From: a virus
Virus record (IMG/VR): IMGVR_UViG_3300030419_000400
Span: 1-38,673 of that record
Length of the DNA stretch: 38,673 bases
Strand: one strand, 5' to 3'
Shown: positions 1-38,673 of the stretch, one piece after another
Layout: every line of letters begins with the position of its first letter
Position numbering within the stretch: position 1 is the stretch's first letter
Made by a program: the position numbers and the translations under genes
Notes under the pieces: model-generated
Database searches by the model: none
Told to the model about the DNA's origin: nothing
What the model saw: only the letters and a program-made list of their open reading frames with translations

Positions 1-191
1 ACATTGATGAGGCTAACACCACTCTACATGAACTGATGCATTGCATAGCCTGGTTGACTAATGAAACAAACGAAGGTGCGTTAGCCAATGAGACAGCAGA
101 AGAACGAGTCGTTAATAACTTTACTAACTATCTTATCGGTATCTTCCGTGAGAATAAATGGTTACTCGATTACTTCAAAGAAAGATTGTAG
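1..191 (+). CDS. Zincin-like metallopeptidase, 3' part only (5' end off the contig)
   Basis: The reading frame opens at base 3 and stops with TAG at 189-191. It encodes the last 62 residues of the same protein as the complete gene at 38066-38419, including the HELMH zinc motif. Against that copy the nucleotides differ at six sites, all synonymous third positions, so the protein is identical. Purely synonymous divergence means both copies come from genomes under purifying selection rather than from sequencing error. The fragment most likely exists because the contig start overlaps the genome circle, but a true terminal duplication is not excluded. Confidence 0.85.
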   Translation, partial: IDEANTTLHELMHCIAWLTNETNEGALANETAEERVVNNFTNYLIGIFRENKWLLDYFKERL

Positions 192-431
192 CAAGGAGAG
201 AGTACAGCAGATCTTGGTTATAGTCGACTCCCATACTCTCTCTATCAATGGGTTTACTCACGAGCCTTCTCCCATAGAATATTTAAGCGAGAGAGTGCCT
301 ACAGGGGCAGCTTCGTAGATGAGATATCTCTAGACCTATACACTCTCTCTATCTGGTGATTGTTCTGTTTCATTTGTATTCTGTTCAATCAACAACATAG
401 GTATTAAGATGTACGCCTATGTAGAACCCAG

Positions 432-563
432 AATATTTTAGCGAGAGATATGCACCAAGATAACATTAGTTGGCAAACAACCCAGAACTCTTTGCATGGC
501 TTGGACATCATTGAAGATTAGTCAAATCACATACTCTCTCTATCCGTATATCTACGGAATATT
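432..563 (+). repeat. 132-nt unit duplicated exactly at 38527-38658
   Basis: Linker AATATTTTAGC, stem A with its 77-nt insert, TAT and stem B CCGTA-TATC-TACGG, plus the first bases of the next linker. Identical in both copies while surrounding sequence differs on both sides and the neighbouring gene has diverged by about 3%. Within the insert, further small hairpins are possible (CCAA/TTGG, CAAA/TTTG, GATT-AGTCA-AATC). Confidence 0.85.
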
Positions 564-863
564 TTAACGAGAACCAATACCTAGTTAACTCTTAATATGC
601 ATTCGGATTAACATGGTTCTCTATCAGTTACAATCTAGCTAGATGAAGGTTCAACCTTACATAACGCAACTGAATATTTTAGCGAGAGAGCATAACCAGT
701 AGCAACTCTTTTAACTGGATTCAGTCGACTCTGCTCTTACACTCTCTCTATCCATTGATCATCGGAATATCTTAACGAGGTGTGGGTACGCCAAAGCCAT
801 TGAACCTGCCTCCTAGGAGGATGTACCGAAATGGTTTCGAAGGCGTTAACTGGTCACCTCTAT

Positions 864-907
864 CCGTAGTTGATCTTGTACTCGTCAGTACCTACAGAAT
901 CTTTTTT
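864..907 (+). terminator. Probable intrinsic terminator closing the array
   Basis: A nested hairpin (GTAG 866-869 with CTAC 892-895; inner GTACT 878-882 with AGTAC 887-891, loop CGTC) is followed after a few bases by six T (902-907). It would stop rightward transcription coming from the control genes through the array, just where the leftward genes end. The T-run sits exactly where the array linker AATATTTTARC would be expected. Confidence 0.45.
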
Positions 908-1080
908 CTTTCTATTTTAAGTTGATCTAGTTTGTCTCTAACTAATATCTGAATGATTCGTTTTTTATTTACACCAGTCATTAGGCATAGCTCATCCATC
1001 ATATCAGTTAATTCTTGATGATCTTTATCTGTTAGATTGATTGCAAAATATTTCCAACCATCTTGTTTAGGACTACTCAT
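892..1080 (-). CDS. Small ribbon-helix-helix-like protein
   Basis: 62 aa. A short strand-like segment (KYFAINLT, residues 10-17) is followed by two predicted helices (residues 18-54), the outline of a CopG/Arc ribbon-helix-helix DNA-binding subunit. No closer family is recognised. It is the last gene of the leftward series; its start overlaps the end of the preceding gene by 8 nt, implying translational coupling. Its 3' end lies inside stem B of the last array module. The RHH assignment is from fold pattern only. Confidence 0.6.
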   Translation of the reverse strand: MSSPKQDGWKYFAINLTDKDHQELTDMMDELCLMTGVNKKRIIQILVRDKLDQLKIERKKIL

Positions 1081-1410: not shown

Positions 1411-1481
1411 CTTTCTTTTAAGAGGCACAGTAGAACGAAAGGAACTACTGCACCTCATTCCTCTAACTAAGGAATATGTTA
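1411..1481 (+). repeat. Possible single array-like module between leftward genes
   Basis: Reading the + strand: TTTCTTTTAA, then GAGG (1422-1425) and CAGTAG (1428-1433) pairing with CTACTG (1445-1450) and CCTC (1453-1456) across a 2x2 mismatch; then ATT, a CC/GG pair around 1460-1472, then AATATGTTAC. This resembles the array order stem A - TAT - stem B - AATATTTTARC, but stem B is only two to four pairs. It could equally be a simple intergenic hairpin acting on the minus-strand transcript. Confidence 0.35.
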
Positions 1482-1724
1482 CACATATTTAGGTTTAGCT
1501 ACTACACTAAACGCAACCTTAGGATCATCAACATAGTTCTGTGCTTCTTCAGTACTAATCATCTTATTGATTTCAATCATCAATGTATTAGTAACTTGAA
1601 TCGGCATATAACCTTTGATCCCAGAGTGAACTGGTTTACCAGTGGAAGTATCCCATTGATTAACAGGATAGGCTTTAATGTAAACCTCTTGTTCCATGTC
1701 TGGATTTATTACTGGATTGCTCAT
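1479..1724 (-). CDS. Hypothetical protein
   Basis: 81 aa, not recognised. No membrane segment or signal peptide. The middle (residues 40-62) looks helical. The start has a good SD (GAAAGGAG, 6 nt spacing). It belongs to the leftward operon; the opposite-strand frame over it is a shadow. Confidence 0.6.
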   Translation of the reverse strand: MSNPVINPDMEQEVYIKAYPVNQWDTSTGKPVHSGIKGYMPIQVTNTLMIEINKMISTEEAQNYVDDPKVAFSVVAKPKYV

Positions 1725-3566: not shown

Positions 3567-3758
3567 TTATCCTTTCTTTTCATAAGTGTTTTTGTATTCG
3601 TCTATCAATTTACTTGCAGCTAATGTAAGAAATTTTACTTTGCTACATTCTAATTTAGCACATATTATTTCAACTTCTTTGTTGATTTCTTTTGGTAAAC
3701 CAACAGATTTATATTTTCTTTTTGTTAGTTTAGTATTTGTTATTGATTCAAATGTCAT
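3567..3758 (-). CDS. Ribbon-helix-helix-like protein, paralogue 2
   Basis: 63 aa. Residues 15-52 (KYKSVGLPKEINKE, then two helices) parallel the neighbouring 82-aa protein, so the pair arose by tandem duplication. Basic N-terminus (TKLTKRKYKS) suits DNA contact. It lacks the longer tail of the paralogue. SD GAAAGGATA precedes the start. The two could form heterodimers; inference. Confidence 0.7.
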   Translation of the reverse strand: MTFESITNTKLTKRKYKSVGLPKEINKEVEIICAKLECSKVKFLTLAASKLIDEYKNTYEKKG

Positions 3759-3760
3759 GT

Positions 3761-3994
3761 CTATCCTTTCGCTCGCTCCAAGTATTCGCTCGCTCTATCC
3801 GAGATTAATAACTTGGCTTTGTTAATGAATTGTCTTGCAGTATTATATTGTTTGTGTTCTATCATAAGCTGTGCATCTGACAGTATACCCATGATATATA
3901 GATAGGTATGTCTACCATAAAGTTTCTGTGCTTCTTTAAAATCATTTAAGACAGCTACTTCAGTAGTACCATACATTTGTTTTTGTGTAGTCAT
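3761..3994 (-). CDS. Hypothetical helical protein (TPR-like pattern)
   Basis: 77 aa, almost entirely helical (LNDFKEAQKLYGRHTYLYIMGILSDAQLMIEH, then YNTARQFINKAKLLISDRASEYLERA). The helix-turn-helix spacing with small and aromatic residues resembles a single TPR-like hairpin, not enough to assign a family. First gene downstream of the structured gap at 3995-4228. Confidence 0.6.
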   Translation of the reverse strand: MTTQKQMYGTTEVAVLNDFKEAQKLYGRHTYLYIMGILSDAQLMIEHKQYNTARQFINKAKLLISDRASEYLERAKG

Positions 3995-5552: not shown

Positions 5553-6008
5553 TTATTTTTCAGTTAGAGGTTTTAACCCTTGTTGTTCCCTCATTTCATT
5601 AATAGATGATAAAGGAATTTCAACAGCTTTAACTTCTGATTTAAGATCATTCCAAGAAGTAGCATAACCCAAATCATGAGCTTGTTTAGTAAACACTTCA
5701 AGAAGTTCTGAGATAGTTTCAGATACAACTTTTTCTCTGTGTTCGGTTTCACTCCAGAACATAGCAGAACCAGCTCTCTTATGATTTGCTTGTGCTTGGA
5801 TTCCTGCATCGTGGCTTTTTTGTTTGTGCCATTCTGCAGAAGTTCTTAAAGAATAACAAATATTAATAGCGAACGCATCAGCAATATTAGTAAAGCCTGA
5901 TTTGTTTGGTTTACAATTGTTATCTTTGATAGCTTGGTTAGTTAAATCTTCCAATTCATTGATTGAATCAGAAATTAACTTTACGATTTTATTTATTAAC
6001 TTATCCAT
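5553..6008 (-). CDS. Hypothetical protein, first leftward gene
   Basis: 151 aa, soluble, mostly helical. Visible segments: MDKLINKIVKLISDSINELEDLTNQAI, a central region rich in Ala and His (SAEWHKQKSHDAGIQAQANHKRAGSAMFW) and a C-terminal helix. Not recognised. Standing alone between a control hub and its own terminator, with a good SD (GAAAGGATAATAAT-ATG), it is probably the most highly and earliest expressed leftward gene; inference. Confidence 0.7.
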   Translation of the reverse strand: MDKLINKIVKLISDSINELEDLTNQAIKDNNCKPNKSGFTNIADAFAINICYSLRTSAEWHKQKSHDAGIQAQANHKRAGSAMFWSETEHREKVVSETISELLEVFTKQAHDLGYATSWNDLKSEVKAVEIPLSSINEMREQQGLKPLTEK

Positions 6009-6165
6009 ATTATTATCCTTTCATTAGTTAATATAAAAACATTAAAGTATTTATTAATTATTAAAAGTATTATTTTTATATATATTTATTATACATAATT
6101 TAAATCTTCCTCTTTACTTCCTTTGGTAAAAGCGCAAGCAGTCGTTGTCGCCCCTGCGAGGGACG

Positions 6166-6202
6166 CTCGGCGAATAACAGCCACTTAGCCTGTTACGCCG
6201 AG
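6166..6202. other. Long GC-rich hairpin
   Basis: CTCGGCG (6166-6172), two bulged A, then TAACAG (6175-6180) pair perfectly with CTGTTA (6190-6195) and CGCCGAG (6196-6202) around a 9-nt loop: 13 bp. No T-run follows on either strand, so it does not look like an intrinsic terminator. A small CCCT-GCG-AGGG hairpin precedes it at about 6152-6162. Its GC content stands out in an AT-rich genome. Confidence 0.6.
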
Positions 6203-6428
6203 TGGAAATAAATAATCCTTTAAACCATATCATTATTGAATATATTATTATCATATACATAGATACGATACTTCCTTTACGCTTACTTCCTTTTCAGAGT
6301 AATCGCTATGCGATTCCCTTATTACTTACTTTGAGAGGGTAGATAATAGGGTCCCTTCCCTTCGGGAAAGAGAAGGAGGAAAGAAGAAAAGAGAAGGATA
6401 CCAACATAATAAATCAAGACGGTGGAGT

Positions 6429-13217: not shown

Positions 13218-14165
13218 ATGGCACAACCAACTAATTTGTACGACACATACGATACAACTGGTATTAGAGAAGATTTAGTTAATGTTATTTATAATGTTAG
13301 TCCTGAAGATACTCCAATACTAAGTGCGATCCCACGTGCTGTTGCAAAATCAACTAAGCATGAATGGCAACTAGATGCACTTGCTACACCTGCAACTAAC
13401 GCAGTTATTGAAGGTGACGAAGCAACTGTAGATGCTATGACTGCAACAACAAGAGCTTTCAACTACTGTCAAATTTCTGACAAAGTGATCGCTGTTTCTG
13501 GTACTCAATCAGCTGTAGACGCTGCTGGTAGAGCTGATGAGATGGCTTATCAAATTGCTAAGAAGTCTAAAGAGTTGAAAAAAGATATGGAATTCGATCT
13601 AATCGAACCCAATGTACAAGTCGCTGGTTCAGCAACTGCCGCTAGAGAGTTAGGATCTATTCCTACTTGGATTAAAACTAACGGTGATGCAGGAACAAGT
13701 GGTTCTCTTTCTACTGGATCTGGTACTGACCTACCTGGTTCTGGTACAGACAGAGATTTAACTGAAGCAATTCTAAAAACAGTTATTAAAGAAGTTTATA
13801 CATCAGGTGGAGACATGGATATGTTAGTATGTCCGCCATCAGTTAAACAAGTAATATCTGGTTTTAATGCTAATACAACTCGTTTTGGTCCAGCTGGAGA
13901 TAAAACAGAGTATGCAGCTATTGACGTTTATAGCTCAGACTTTGGTGATCTTAAGATTGTACCAAATAGAGTAATGGCTACTACTGACGCTAAAGATGTA
14001 TTTATCATTCAGCGTGATATGTTAGCTACTGCTTACCTAAGAGATTTCATGGTTCAAGATTTATCAAAAACTGGTGACTCTGACAAGAAACAACTTTTAG
14101 TTGAGTACACATTGGAAGTTCGAAATGAAGCCGCACACGGTATCATTTTAGATATTAACCAATAA
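13218..14165 (+). CDS. Major capsid protein (DUF5309/SU10-like)
   Basis: 315 aa. The start NLYDTYDTTGIREDLVNVIYNVSPEDTPILSAIPRA is the hallmark of the DUF5309 family (major head protein of phage SU10 and relatives), with an HK97-type fold. Position after the scaffold agrees. GAGGGCC precedes the start by about 6 nt. A strong hairpin follows the stop, as often seen after highly expressed capsid genes. The best single marker in the window for virion type. Confidence 0.92.
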   Translation: MAQPTNLYDTYDTTGIREDLVNVIYNVSPEDTPILSAIPRAVAKSTKHEWQLDALATPATNAVIEGDEATVDAMTATTRAFNYCQISDKVIAVSGTQSAVDAAGRADEMAYQIAKKSKELKKDMEFDLIEPNVQVAGSATAARELGSIPTWIKTNGDAGTSGSLSTGSGTDLPGSGTDRDLTEAILKTVIKEVYTSGGDMDMLVCPPSVKQVISGFNANTTRFGPAGDKTEYAAIDVYSSDFGDLKIVPNRVMATTDAKDVFIIQRDMLATAYLRDFMVQDLSKTGDSDKKQLLVEYTLEVRNEAAHGIILDINQ

Positions 14166-14174
14166 TCATAATTA

Positions 14175-14198
14175 GTGGGGGAGTTTCGGCTCCCCTAC
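14175..14198 (+). terminator. Hairpin after the capsid gene
   Basis: GTGGGGGAG (14175-14183) pairs with CTCCCCTAC (14190-14198), 9 bp with one G-T pair and loop TTTCGG. Only three T follow, so it is likely a partial terminator or a 3' stabiliser for the capsid message rather than a full stop. Confidence 0.65.
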
Positions 14199-14215
14199 TT
14201 TAGAATCATTCTAAA
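14199..14215. repeat. Palindrome TTTAGAAT-C-ATTCTAAA
   Basis: Perfect 8-bp inverted repeat with a single central base, just before the SD of the next gene. The same core, TTAGAAT-N-ATTCTAA, recurs at 34037-34051 ahead of another gene. Protein-binding site or small hairpin; undecided. Confidence 0.5.
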
Positions 14216-14226
14216 AAGGAAAACAA

Positions 14227-14514
14227 ATGAATAAAGCTCCAACAACATTTAGACCATCCACTACACAGACTGTAGCTGTAGGTGCAACCTCTGCTGCGTC
14301 AAGTGCATTTGGTTCGGAAACTAGAGAAATAAGAATTGTAACAACTGTTGATGCATATGTTGAATTTGCTAGTAGCCCAACTGCTACATCTTCTTCATTA
14401 TTGATACCTGCATTTACTGTAGAATATTTTAGGGTAGCACCTTCTAGTAAAGTTGCTATGCTAAGAGTAGGTTCTACTACTGGTACATCAAGAGTAACTG
14501 AACTTACACAATAA
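14227..14514 (+). CDS. Putative minor head/decoration protein
   Basis: 95 aa, Thr/Ser/Ala-rich and strand-rich (QTVAVGATSAASSAFGSETREIRIVTTVDAYVEF, VEYFRVAPSSKVAMLRVGS), consistent with a small beta-sandwich. Its place directly after the capsid gene suggests a capsid-bound protein. No sequence family is firmly recognised. The stop overlaps the next start by one base (TAATG). Confidence 0.6.
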   Translation: MNKAPTTFRPSTTQTVAVGATSAASSAFGSETREIRIVTTVDAYVEFASSPTATSSSLLIPAFTVEYFRVAPSSKVAMLRVGSTTGTSRVTELTQ

Positions 14515-14973: not shown

Positions 14974-15799
14974 CAGTAAGATTAGTGATTTGACAGCATT
15001 GACAACAACAGCATCAGGTGATTCGTTACCTATTGTAGATGCAGATGCAAGTGCTACAAAAAAAATCACAGTAGAAAATATATTTAAAGGAATACCTGTA
15101 AGTATAGGTGTCAATGTAGCTACACCACTTGCTAAGTTGCACGTAGTTAGAGATGCGGTAAGTCACTCAACTAATAGTTCACTAGCACCAATACGAACCG
15201 AAGATGATACTAGACCAGGTATTTTTATTACAGGCAATGCAGATAATATAGGTATTATACAATTTGGTGATCACGAATCTGTTAACGCAGGTGAAATTTA
15301 TTATGCTCATAGTGATAACAAATTTAGTTTTAGATGTGCAGGAACTGTACAAGCAACTTTAGCTGATGGTGTATTAGCACCAGAAACAGATTCAGATGTA
15401 GACTTAGGTACTTCCTCTTTGTACTTTAAGGATGCATACATAGATTCTATTACTACAACTGGTGCAGTAAATGGTTCACTTAAAAGATGGACAGCTAAGA
15501 CTACAACTTATACAGCAGTAGCTGGAGATAGAATACTAGCTGATACATCTGGTGGTGCTTGGACATTAACACTTCCTGCTTCACCTGCAGTTGGAGATGA
15601 AATACATATCCTCGATTCAACAGCATCATTTGATAATAACAACTTAACAGTTGCAAGAAACAGTTTAAAAATACAAGGCGGTACTGCAGACCTTACATTA
15701 AGTACAGAAAGTACAGGTATTGGTCTTGTATATATGAGTTCAACTTATGGATGGAGAGTTTTAGTAGACGCATACGATGTAGATATAACGGAGTTATAA
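14966..15799 (+). CDS. Tail-fibre-like structural protein
   Basis: 277 aa. The start MADSKISDLTALTTTASGDSLPIVD is typical of phage fibre and spike N-termini. A beta-rich middle contains DSDVDLGTSSLYFKDAYIDSITTTG, a repeat seen also in the large S74 fibre of this phage (ADGQALGSTSAEWSDLYLADG). The last 100 residues (LPASPAVGDEIHILDSTASFDNNNLTVARN) look like a beta-helix or sandwich cap. Likely a virion appendage protein. Confidence 0.65.
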   Translation: MADSKISDLTALTTTASGDSLPIVDADASATKKITVENIFKGIPVSIGVNVATPLAKLHVVRDAVSHSTNSSLAPIRTEDDTRPGIFITGNADNIGIIQFGDHESVNAGEIYYAHSDNKFSFRCAGTVQATLADGVLAPETDSDVDLGTSSLYFKDAYIDSITTTGAVNGSLKRWTAKTTTYTAVAGDRILADTSGGAWTLTLPASPAVGDEIHILDSTASFDNNNLTVARNSLKIQGGTADLTLSTESTGIGLVYMSSTYGWRVLVDAYDVDITEL

Positions 15800-15800
15800 T

Positions 15801-16118
15801 ATGGAGGACATATATAATTCCAATCAACCTATACATATTGATAGAGGTACAAGAAAACTTGTTGTAAGAAGTCGTCAAGATACTACTCCTATCTTAGAAG
15901 ATAACAAAATCCTTCGTAATCATATGCCTGAAGCACAAAGAGGAGATCTGCAAAGAATAGCTCAGATACCTATTATTGCTTTAAAGGTTAAGACTAAGGA
16001 AAGATTTGGTCACTCAAACTTTTACAAACTTAATAATGAAGAACAAACAAACATTATTAAAGAGATGGTAAATAGTAATGAGTATATGTTTTTTAGAACA
16101 GGAGATAAGAAATTATAA
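15801..16118 (+). CDS. Hypothetical virion-module protein
   Basis: 105 aa. The C-terminal half (RGDLQRIAQIPIIALKVKTKERFGHSNFYKLNNEEQTNIIKEMVNSNEYMFFRTGDKKL) looks like a compact alpha/beta domain with a conserved-looking FRT end. Similar small proteins occur between capsid and adaptor genes in marine podoviruses. One-base overlap with the next gene. Confidence 0.6.
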   Translation: MEDIYNSNQPIHIDRGTRKLVVRSRQDTTPILEDNKILRNHMPEAQRGDLQRIAQIPIIALKVKTKERFGHSNFYKLNNEEQTNIIKEMVNSNEYMFFRTGDKKL

Positions 16119-37845: not shown

Positions 37846-38088
37846 ATGAAACAAATCAATAACTTATCCAAATCAGAGAACTACTTAAAGACTGTAGATA
37901 TGGACCAATTAGCTAGGTCAGTAGAGACAAGCCTCAACTGTCCAACAAAAGTAGCTACTGCTATAGCTAAACTTATATCTGCTAAGATCTATCTGGAACT
38001 AGTATGTGAAGAAGAAGAACACACAGAGTATTTACTAGACCTAGAGAATCAGTTAAGAATACACCATGTCAAAGAAACTATCCATTGA
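37846..38088 (+). CDS. Small helical protein
   Basis: 80 aa, helical and acidic at the C-terminus (NYLKTVDMDQLARSVETSLNCPTKVATAIAKLISAKIYLELVCEEEEHTEYLLDLENQL). Behind its own promoter candidate. No family recognised. The last 23 nt overlap the metallopeptidase gene. Weak SD (CAGGTG), about 10 nt upstream. Confidence 0.6.
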   Translation: MKQINNLSKSENYLKTVDMDQLARSVETSLNCPTKVATAIAKLISAKIYLELVCEEEEHTEYLLDLENQLRIHHVKETIH

Positions 38089-38419
38089 CGGTAAGAAGAT
38101 AAAGGTACATTGTACCGATATCACCATTGAACTTAGAGAACCTGAATTTAGTGATGATAATCTTACTGATTGTTACGGACACTATCTTAAGCGTAAGAAT
38201 CTTATTCAAATAAACAAAGGACTATCAGACATTGATGAGGCTAACACCACTCTACATGAACTGATGCATTGCATAGCCTGGTTGACTAATGAAACAAACG
38301 AAGGTGCTTTAGCTAATGAGACAGCAGAAGAACGAGTCGTTAATAATTTTACTAACTATCTTATCGGTATCTTTCGTGAGAATAAATGGTTGCTCGATTA
38401 CTTCAAAGAAAGATTATAG
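38066..38419 (+). CDS. Zincin-like metallopeptidase domain protein
   Basis: 117 aa. HELMH (H64-E65-x-x-H68) is a zincin HExxH active site inside a helix (EANTTLHELMHCIAWL), with a possible third ligand in the EER cluster (E88/E89) of the following helix. Size and layout match small phage-encoded metallopeptidases, some related to ImmA/IrrE; its substrate is unknown. The TAG stop lies inside ATTATAGC, which resembles the array linker that follows immediately. Partly repeated at 1-191. Confidence 0.75.
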   Translation: MSKKLSIDGKKIKVHCTDITIELREPEFSDDNLTDCYGHYLKRKNLIQINKGLSDIDEANTTLHELMHCIAWLTNETNEGALANETAEERVVNNFTNYLIGIFRENKWLLDYFKERL

Positions 38420-38673
38420 CGAGAGAAACTAGCATTGAGTACTGTTACCCAGTTTCTCTCTATTGGCGATCTTCCTTACACCAGGATCCTTAGTCAGACA
38501 ATACTGTGTACTACTGTCTGATACCAAATATTTTAGCGAGAGATATGCACCAAGATAACATTAGTTGGCAAACAACCCAGAACTCTTTGCATGGCTTGGA
38601 CATCATTGAAGATTAGTCAAATCACATACTCTCTCTATCCGTATATCTACGGAATATTATTTATTAGGTAATA
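38417..38673 (+). repeat. Second, different copy of the paired-stem array at the right end
   Basis: Directly after the stop: stem A GAGAGAAACT (38421-38430)/AGTTTCTCTC (38451-38460), perfect 10 bp; TAT (38461-38463); stem B TGG (38464-38466)/CCA (38524-38526) with inner TCAGACA/TGTCTGA (38494-38500/38515-38521); linker AATATTTTAGC. Then the third module of the left array occurs with identical sequence (38527-38658 equals 432-563, 132 nt). The last 15 nt differ (ATTTATTAGGTAATA). The first module here is absent from the left array, so modules are gained, lost or rearranged between copies. Confidence 0.8.

Follow-up and report, generated by a model that had tools for sequence, protein, structure and literature searches.

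REP/BIME elements are intergenic palindromes that occur in mosaic combinations, and in this they resemble the array described here; their units come from one family and are linked to a REP-associated transposase. Among phages, PhiTE escapes ToxIN by means of pseudo-ToxI, a tandem series of pseudoknots that undergoes expansion and recombination (PMC3475682). The type III toxins cut A-rich sites, which for ToxN_Pa are AA/AU (PMC5086642). Finally, the switching of one palindrome to another in OLE and GOLLD RNAs has been taken as evidence of intermolecular kissing loops, because neighbouring bases cannot pair within one chain (PMC12286853).

Here we consider an IMG/VR phage contig of 38,673 bases, the whole of which is called the window below. 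Its terminase is 45-49% identical to the terminases of Pelagibacter and Methylophilales phages. The array at positions 192-905 is very probably a mosaic of structured RNA domains that exhibit real covariation inside homologous families.

Layout and reassortment of the arrays

The array sits between a metalloprotease-like gene on the plus strand and a 62-aa gene on the minus strand, whose stop codon lies 8 nt inside the array and for which no PHROG or Pfam match was found. It is composed of six units, each with one B hairpin and one A hairpin, and short linkers lie between them (Table 1). In sense order a unit runs AUAUU, B domain, AUA, A domain, GYUA, and its two domains bring it to ~65-155 nt; A residues join successive units (GYUAAAAUAUU). 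On the strand as presented, TAT-type linkers part the A stems from the B stems and AATATTTTARC-type linkers close the modules. Variants of the latter are AATATTTAAGC and AATATCTTAAC, the last linker ends AATCTTTTTTC, and AAAAU is present in most linkers.

An initial annotation of this DNA had marked out six modules here with both linker types and had listed complementary arms for stems A and B, and all of these are present. A strict gapless search (A stem-TAT-B stem-AATAY) recovered three of the six modules, inside 385 bases. The same search produced 45 chance matches in 706 kb of shuffled sequence (~0.06/kb), which corresponds to ~0.05 expected in the array, and the modules are thus more than chance would supply. 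Shuffled sequence, which had been proposed as the control that might score equally well, did not do so, as folding of the twelve domains is better than that of shuffles on either strand (z -3.3 on the strand as presented and -4.9 on its complement).

Table 1. Features of the array and related sites in the window. Positions of A and B domains are those of the A and B stems.
Feature	Position	Strand	Basis or remark
62-aa gene, upstream of array in sense direction	892..1080	-	ORF list; stop codon overlaps first B domain
B domain, family B_GACG, unit 1 in sense order	864..897	-	homologues; alifold sense -12.4 vs antisense -8.1
A domain, family A_big	777..860	-	five helices, two pseudoknotted; covariation count
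Inter-unit linker, sense GUUAAGAUAUU	766..776	-	sequence
B domain, minimal hairpin B_TTGATC	752..765	-	six variants
A domain, family A_CAGT, palindromic centre AGUCGACU	684..748	-	eight homologues; alifold sense -21.6 vs antisense -14.4
Inter-unit linker, sense GCUAAAAUAUU	673..683	-	sequence
B domain, family B_CAGT, three-way junction with palindrome AUCUAGCUAGAU	625..672	-	homologues
A domain, family A_AACC	569..621	-	four different B domains follow in four phages
Inter-unit linker, sense GUUAAAAUAUU	558..568	-	sequence
B domain, short hairpin CCGUAGAUAUACGG	544..557	-	sequence and fold
A domain, family A_TATG	443..540	-	identity 98% in one further phage and 87-88% in those more distant; alifold sense -18.5 vs antisense -8.1
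Inter-unit linker, sense GCUAAAAUAUU	432..442	-	sequence
B domain, family B_CTGG	353..431	-	sequence and fold
A domain, family A_GTGC, palindrome GAGAUAUCUC	289..349	-	98% identical in G020, B partner different there
Inter-unit linker, sense GCUUAAAUAUU	278..288	-	sequence
B domain, family B_AATG	246..277	-	sequence and fold
A domain, family A_GTAC, last in sense order	196..242	-	94% identical in G010, B partner different there
Metalloprotease-like gene, 3' end	1..191	+	convergent with array; stop codon is the array's 3' boundary; same protein as 38066-38419
Second array site, one small unit, same grammar	1422..1474	-	directly after stop codon of gene 1479-1724(-)
Variant array, other contig end	38421..38652	-	A_AAAC, B_TTGGC1, A_TATG, short B hairpin

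Related arrays were gathered by their linker pattern, by the neighbouring peptidase and by two other neighbouring genes. A loose computational scan for the array grammar gave mostly noise, and the homology-based collection was used instead. Homology clustering across ~30 contigs yielded ~18 A-slot and 12 B-slot families. Judged by this sequence comparison, the six modules, which had been read as one module repeated six times, are different and often unrelated domain families in two slots that are reshuffled between phages, rather than copies of one element. For example, in the orientation presented, A_AACC is followed by B_CAGT in the window, by B_TTGGC1 in G003, by B_TTGGC2 in G022 and by another hairpin in G002, and B_CAGT itself comes after A_AACC, A_GTAG, A_GCCTAAG or A_GCTT. 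The partner of A_GTGC is B_CTGG in the window and B_TTGATC in G020. A_big and B_GACG were together in every case found, and no full-length homologue of B_CTGG was found among the collected arrays.

Domain identity reaches 88-100% between phages whose alignable genomes average 70-80%, which may reflect either exchange or strong constraint. In other phages (L030-L032), these domains turn up at a different kind of site. In one relative (G012) the array is absent from the present site, and a convergent gene adjoins the peptidase stop almost immediately within the same gene neighbourhood. Larger arrays occupy the site equivalent to window 1422..1474 in relatives.

Several further observations concern the contigs themselves. 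Window 1-190 recurs at 38229-38419 with several base differences, and the contig ends therefore look like two variants of one locus. Both ends (1-190; 38229-38673) carry a near-identical peptidase 3' end and an array, yet the array modules differ, with only the A_TATG/B pair held in common between 38421..38652 and 192-905. The downstream genes past the array apparently differ between the two ends as well, and the contig seems to have been joined from strain variants. Five related contigs (L087, L088, L091, L092 and L094) have a second array site past position 2743, downstream of an 81-aa gene. Its stem families (GGTGACAA..TTGTCACC, GGGGGAGA..TCTCCCCC and GCAGTG..CACTGC) follow the same linker grammar and were left out of the family counts. 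Elsewhere in the window, the GC-rich and strongly foldable stretch 6100-6215 (CTCGGCG...CGCCGAG, GTCGCCCCTGCGAGGGACG) lies just upstream of gene 5553-6008(-), and it is a possible candidate for a second structured RNA that heads the operon of this gene. Six related contigs (G006 2542-2799, G009 2134-2391, G020 3733-3990, G026 357-614, G008 14124-14381 and G022 15670-15927) have in common a noncoding gap that a crude ORF call puts at exactly 258 bases, where a further conserved element or an overlooked small gene may lie.

Strand, covariation and pseudoknots

It is almost certain that the array RNA corresponds not to the strand as presented, which the initial annotation had read, but to its complement. 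We assign it so because the arrays in ~30 related contigs are sense to the gene they abut, and because wobble and folding evidence point the same way. Nearly every array starts close to the stop codon of a sense gene, which falls anywhere between 60 nt upstream and 8 nt downstream of the array start. Past the 3' end comes either a sense start codon, often at a distance of 22-26 nt, or the stop codon of a convergent gene at 2-8 nt (flanks were computed, and loci were also inspected by eye). In L099 and L103, the last linker runs directly into the ribosome-binding site AGAAAGGA. RNAalifold favours the sense strand in most families (for example, A_CCTA at -22.0 vs -14.4), except that A_big, A_AGGG and B_TTGGC score about equally or slightly better on the other strand. 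When structures were predicted without G-U pairs, so that neither strand was favoured, the sense-strand column pairs comprised 26 G-U types vs 8 A-C types, although the sequences are related and these are not fully independent events. This replacement of Watson-Crick pairs by G-U on the sense strand argues for RNA as the active form and speaks against the folded DNA that had been offered as an alternative.

Covariation was examined in two A families. In A_GTAG, two crossing helices join columns 16-20 to 48-52 and columns 33-37 to 54-58. The former changes from GUGUA/UACAC to GUGCG/CGCAC or GUGAG/CUCAC, and the latter from CUAGA/UCUAG to CUAGG/CCUAG or CUAAG/CUUAG. With the outer stem included, 98.2% of cells are paired, compared with 37-64% in slid controls, and 7 pairs with 12 cells are changed on both sides. 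The A_big family has five helices, some of them crossing, with 96.8% of cells paired and 10 pairs with 24 cells changed on both sides. These counts were reached in 0/500 shuffles for each family, a test that relatedness inflates and that was applied to structures drawn by eye from the very alignments in question; it would be hard to explain otherwise the outcome of the slid controls and the fact that crossing helices show exact compensations. The first six bases of one A_big row, and one terminal base per side in a few rows of A_CAGT, were restored from the contig sequence after BLAST clipping. In A_CAGT, a candidate pseudoknot of the hairpin loop with an upstream segment was seen by eye. Overall, a long outer stem closes each A domain, with covarying pseudoknots, H-type ones included, inside it in both tested families.

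These results alter how the changes among modules should be understood. The initial annotation had regarded the concerted arm changes as covariation inside one genome. However, the modules come from different families whose stems simply differ, and true covariation exists only between homologous domains of different phages. There it is significant, where its absence from homologous loci had been named as grounds for abandoning the proposal. Likewise, the loops were said to vary freely, with only the linkers conserved, but loops are conserved among the members of a family, and the pseudoknots are located in them.

Possible roles of the arrays

The reading we prefer, tentatively and at somewhat less than even chances, is that the array would constitute a series of trans-acting folded-RNA cassettes, perhaps serving as counter-defence decoys. 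The array would be transcribed with the operon of the gene it follows, and its A-rich single-stranded linkers would act as cut sites in the precursor or as spacers. Released or tethered domains might then work in trans by binding, as folded RNAs, to particular host factors, among which RNases, toxins or other defence proteins are the most plausible targets. A phage could gain or lose activities by exchanging domains, in the manner of PhiTE and its pseudo-ToxI pseudoknots. We favour this reading because conservation within families extends to loops and pseudoknots, because discrete cassettes are exchanged, and because PhiTE provides a precedent. The linker GYUAAAAUAUU also contains A-rich sequence similar to that which type III toxins cut (PMC5086642). 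Against decoys stands the finding that no single array repeats one domain, as a titrating decoy would favour, and against a ToxI-like action that the A domains are closed by a long stem where ToxI has single-stranded tails. High domain identity, taken alone, could also result from transfer without function. A search for ToxN_toxin (PF13958) gave no match in ten records and was equally silent in control genomes, and so is uninformative.

It is possible that the linkers are recognized by a machine. A more ambitious version of the trans-acting reading, which we regard as doubtful, would be a combinatorial RNA cassette system in which two-slot units on constant linkers draw their domains from a shared pool of ~30 families, each with its own target. 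Part of this same doubtful reading is that the system would be the RNA counterpart of protein anti-defence islands.

Rather unlikely, in our estimation, though still in contention, is a cis-acting role in which tight pseudoknotted domains after stop codons block exonucleases or set processing, much as REP/BIME but made of RNA. The arrays do occupy the space between a stop codon, which they follow directly, and the next start codon or a convergent stop, their long A stems are stable, and unrelated folds are interchangeable, as would be expected of a barrier for which any stable fold suffices. However, the conservation of loops and pseudoknots within families, together with their covariation, exceeds such a generic need, B domains are sometimes of just 2-3 bp, and the site is empty in G012. 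Transcription control, whether by a bidirectional terminator between convergent operons or by put-like antitermination hairpins, is highly improbable. The window array does lie between convergent genes and has hairpins near AU-rich tracts, but the genes on either side of many arrays are co-directional and a start codon comes just downstream, the A stems have no U-run after them, and the convergent genes of G012 manage with no array between them. At least as improbable is an element that acts as DNA, such as a mobile hairpin cassette, a recombination site or a protein-binding site. Mosaic shuffling, presence or absence at a site, and sharing between phages would suit such an element. However, RNA is indicated by sense-strand replacements that are G-U rather than A-C and by the uniform orientation to transcription, pseudoknot covariation also counts against DNA, and no transposase-like gene was recognized near the array.

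Palindromes bear on one more alternative, namely that domains dimerize through self-complementary hairpin loops into an ornate oligomeric assembly, like GOLLD, ROOL and OLE, which we consider improbable though likewise still in contention. Perfect palindromes of at least 8 bases number 7.7/kb in arrays vs 3.4/kb elsewhere, and those of at least 12 bases 1.7/kb vs 0.2/kb. For the window alone the excess is modest, with its counts at 8, 10 and 12 bases reached by 97, 45 and 20 of 1000 shuffles. Among hairpins with a 4-bp stem and a 4-base loop, the loop is self-complementary in 5/25, compared with 4.4% in genomes. Moreover, in four families the unpaired hairpin centre swaps one self-complementary tetranucleotide for another (A_ACAT, UAUA/UCGA; A_CAGT, AUAU/UCGA; B_TTGAG, ACGU/AGCU/GCGC; B_CCTA, ACGU/AGCU), which is the pattern used for GOLLD and OLE (PMC12286853). 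As a sign of homo-oligomers we rate this switching as suggestive, because it was noticed after the fact, the palindrome test having been picked once the data had been seen, and because A_GTAG and B_GACG do not switch. In addition, the arrays vary too much between phages for one architecture to be easily imagined.

If the trans-acting reading is true, then a group of marine phages, with arrays right after certain genes, trade and recombine folded RNA domains as others trade small protein genes. The arrays would be a new kind of phage non-coding RNA and a natural library of compact pseudoknots with covariation data built in, and phage RNA repertoires against host RNases and defence systems would become testable. 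Even under a barrier model, the use of pseudoknotted domains that can replace one another behind stop codons would be a novelty in phage mRNA.

Relation to described elements

The initial annotation had suggested an undescribed structured RNA, and database searches agree with it. No Rfam family matched the window at gathering level, and relaxed thresholds gave no convincing family for the array and related loci, including no GOLLD, ROOL or OLE. That the array is not tRNA is borne out by ARAGORN, which reported zero tRNA or tmRNA genes in the window. The mcrA RNA motif (RF03010) aligned with B_GACG on the sense strand, through its GACG hairpin and CUACGGAUA, at 15.3 bits and an E value of 0.25, vs a gathering score of 57.6. 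A pattern search for mcrA led to further phage contigs, in which the flanks are unrelated and the array grammar is missing, and we regard the match as chance. As a separate observation with no relation to the present array, the mcrA RNA pattern occurs in 39 viral stretches (L112-L150), and those inspected mostly share one context, with CGGAAATTCATTCCGGATTCGACTGGATGAAATACAAAG upstream.

Among isolate phages, blastn matched neither the window array nor either of two further arrays, and tblastn did not match the peptidase. In the cultured relative HTVC106P the convergent genes are not separated by a long gap; in Venkman, gaps are present. Two array patterns gave 0 matches in prokaryote genomes (GTDB, 84,980 species), a search with exact patterns that are insensitive to diverged copies. 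Comparison of the array with the rest of the contig revealed no exact match of at least 13 bases, which argues against an antisense action on the phage's own genes. Leaving aside the survey of 224 RNA motifs (10.1093/nar/gkx699), we found no description of such arrays in the literature.

A two-slot mosaic of interchangeable pseudoknotted RNA domains thus fits no known kind that we tested, and the closest systems each share some of its traits. Like the pseudo-ToxI of PhiTE and the type III antitoxins (ToxI, CptI and antiQ), the array is phage-borne, intergenic and tandem, has pseudoknots and A-rich junctions, and undergoes expansion and recombination (PMC3475682, PMC5086642). The ToxIN family has tandem, near-identical repeats of ~34-36 nt, whereas units here are larger, have two domains, are all different within an array, and have no known toxin partner. 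A toxin gene of the ToxN/CptN/TenpN type accompanies members of that family, although a phage decoy would not need one. ToxI also forms an H-type pseudoknot with free single-stranded tails; pseudoknots are supported in the array, but a long stem encloses them. We have not filed the array under the ToxI family because its units are larger than ToxI repeats, all different, and closed by long stems.

Like the phage-borne GOLLD and ROOL and the bacterial OLE, the arrays are large structured RNAs with pseudoknots and palindrome-switching loops (PMC12286853). They differ in having no Rfam match and in being a mosaic rather than one conserved architecture, and the window has no tRNA genes. The mosaic of palindromic units that characterizes REP/BIME is found here as well, but it is built from many unrelated families instead of one, always in one orientation to transcription, with pseudoknots, and in phages.
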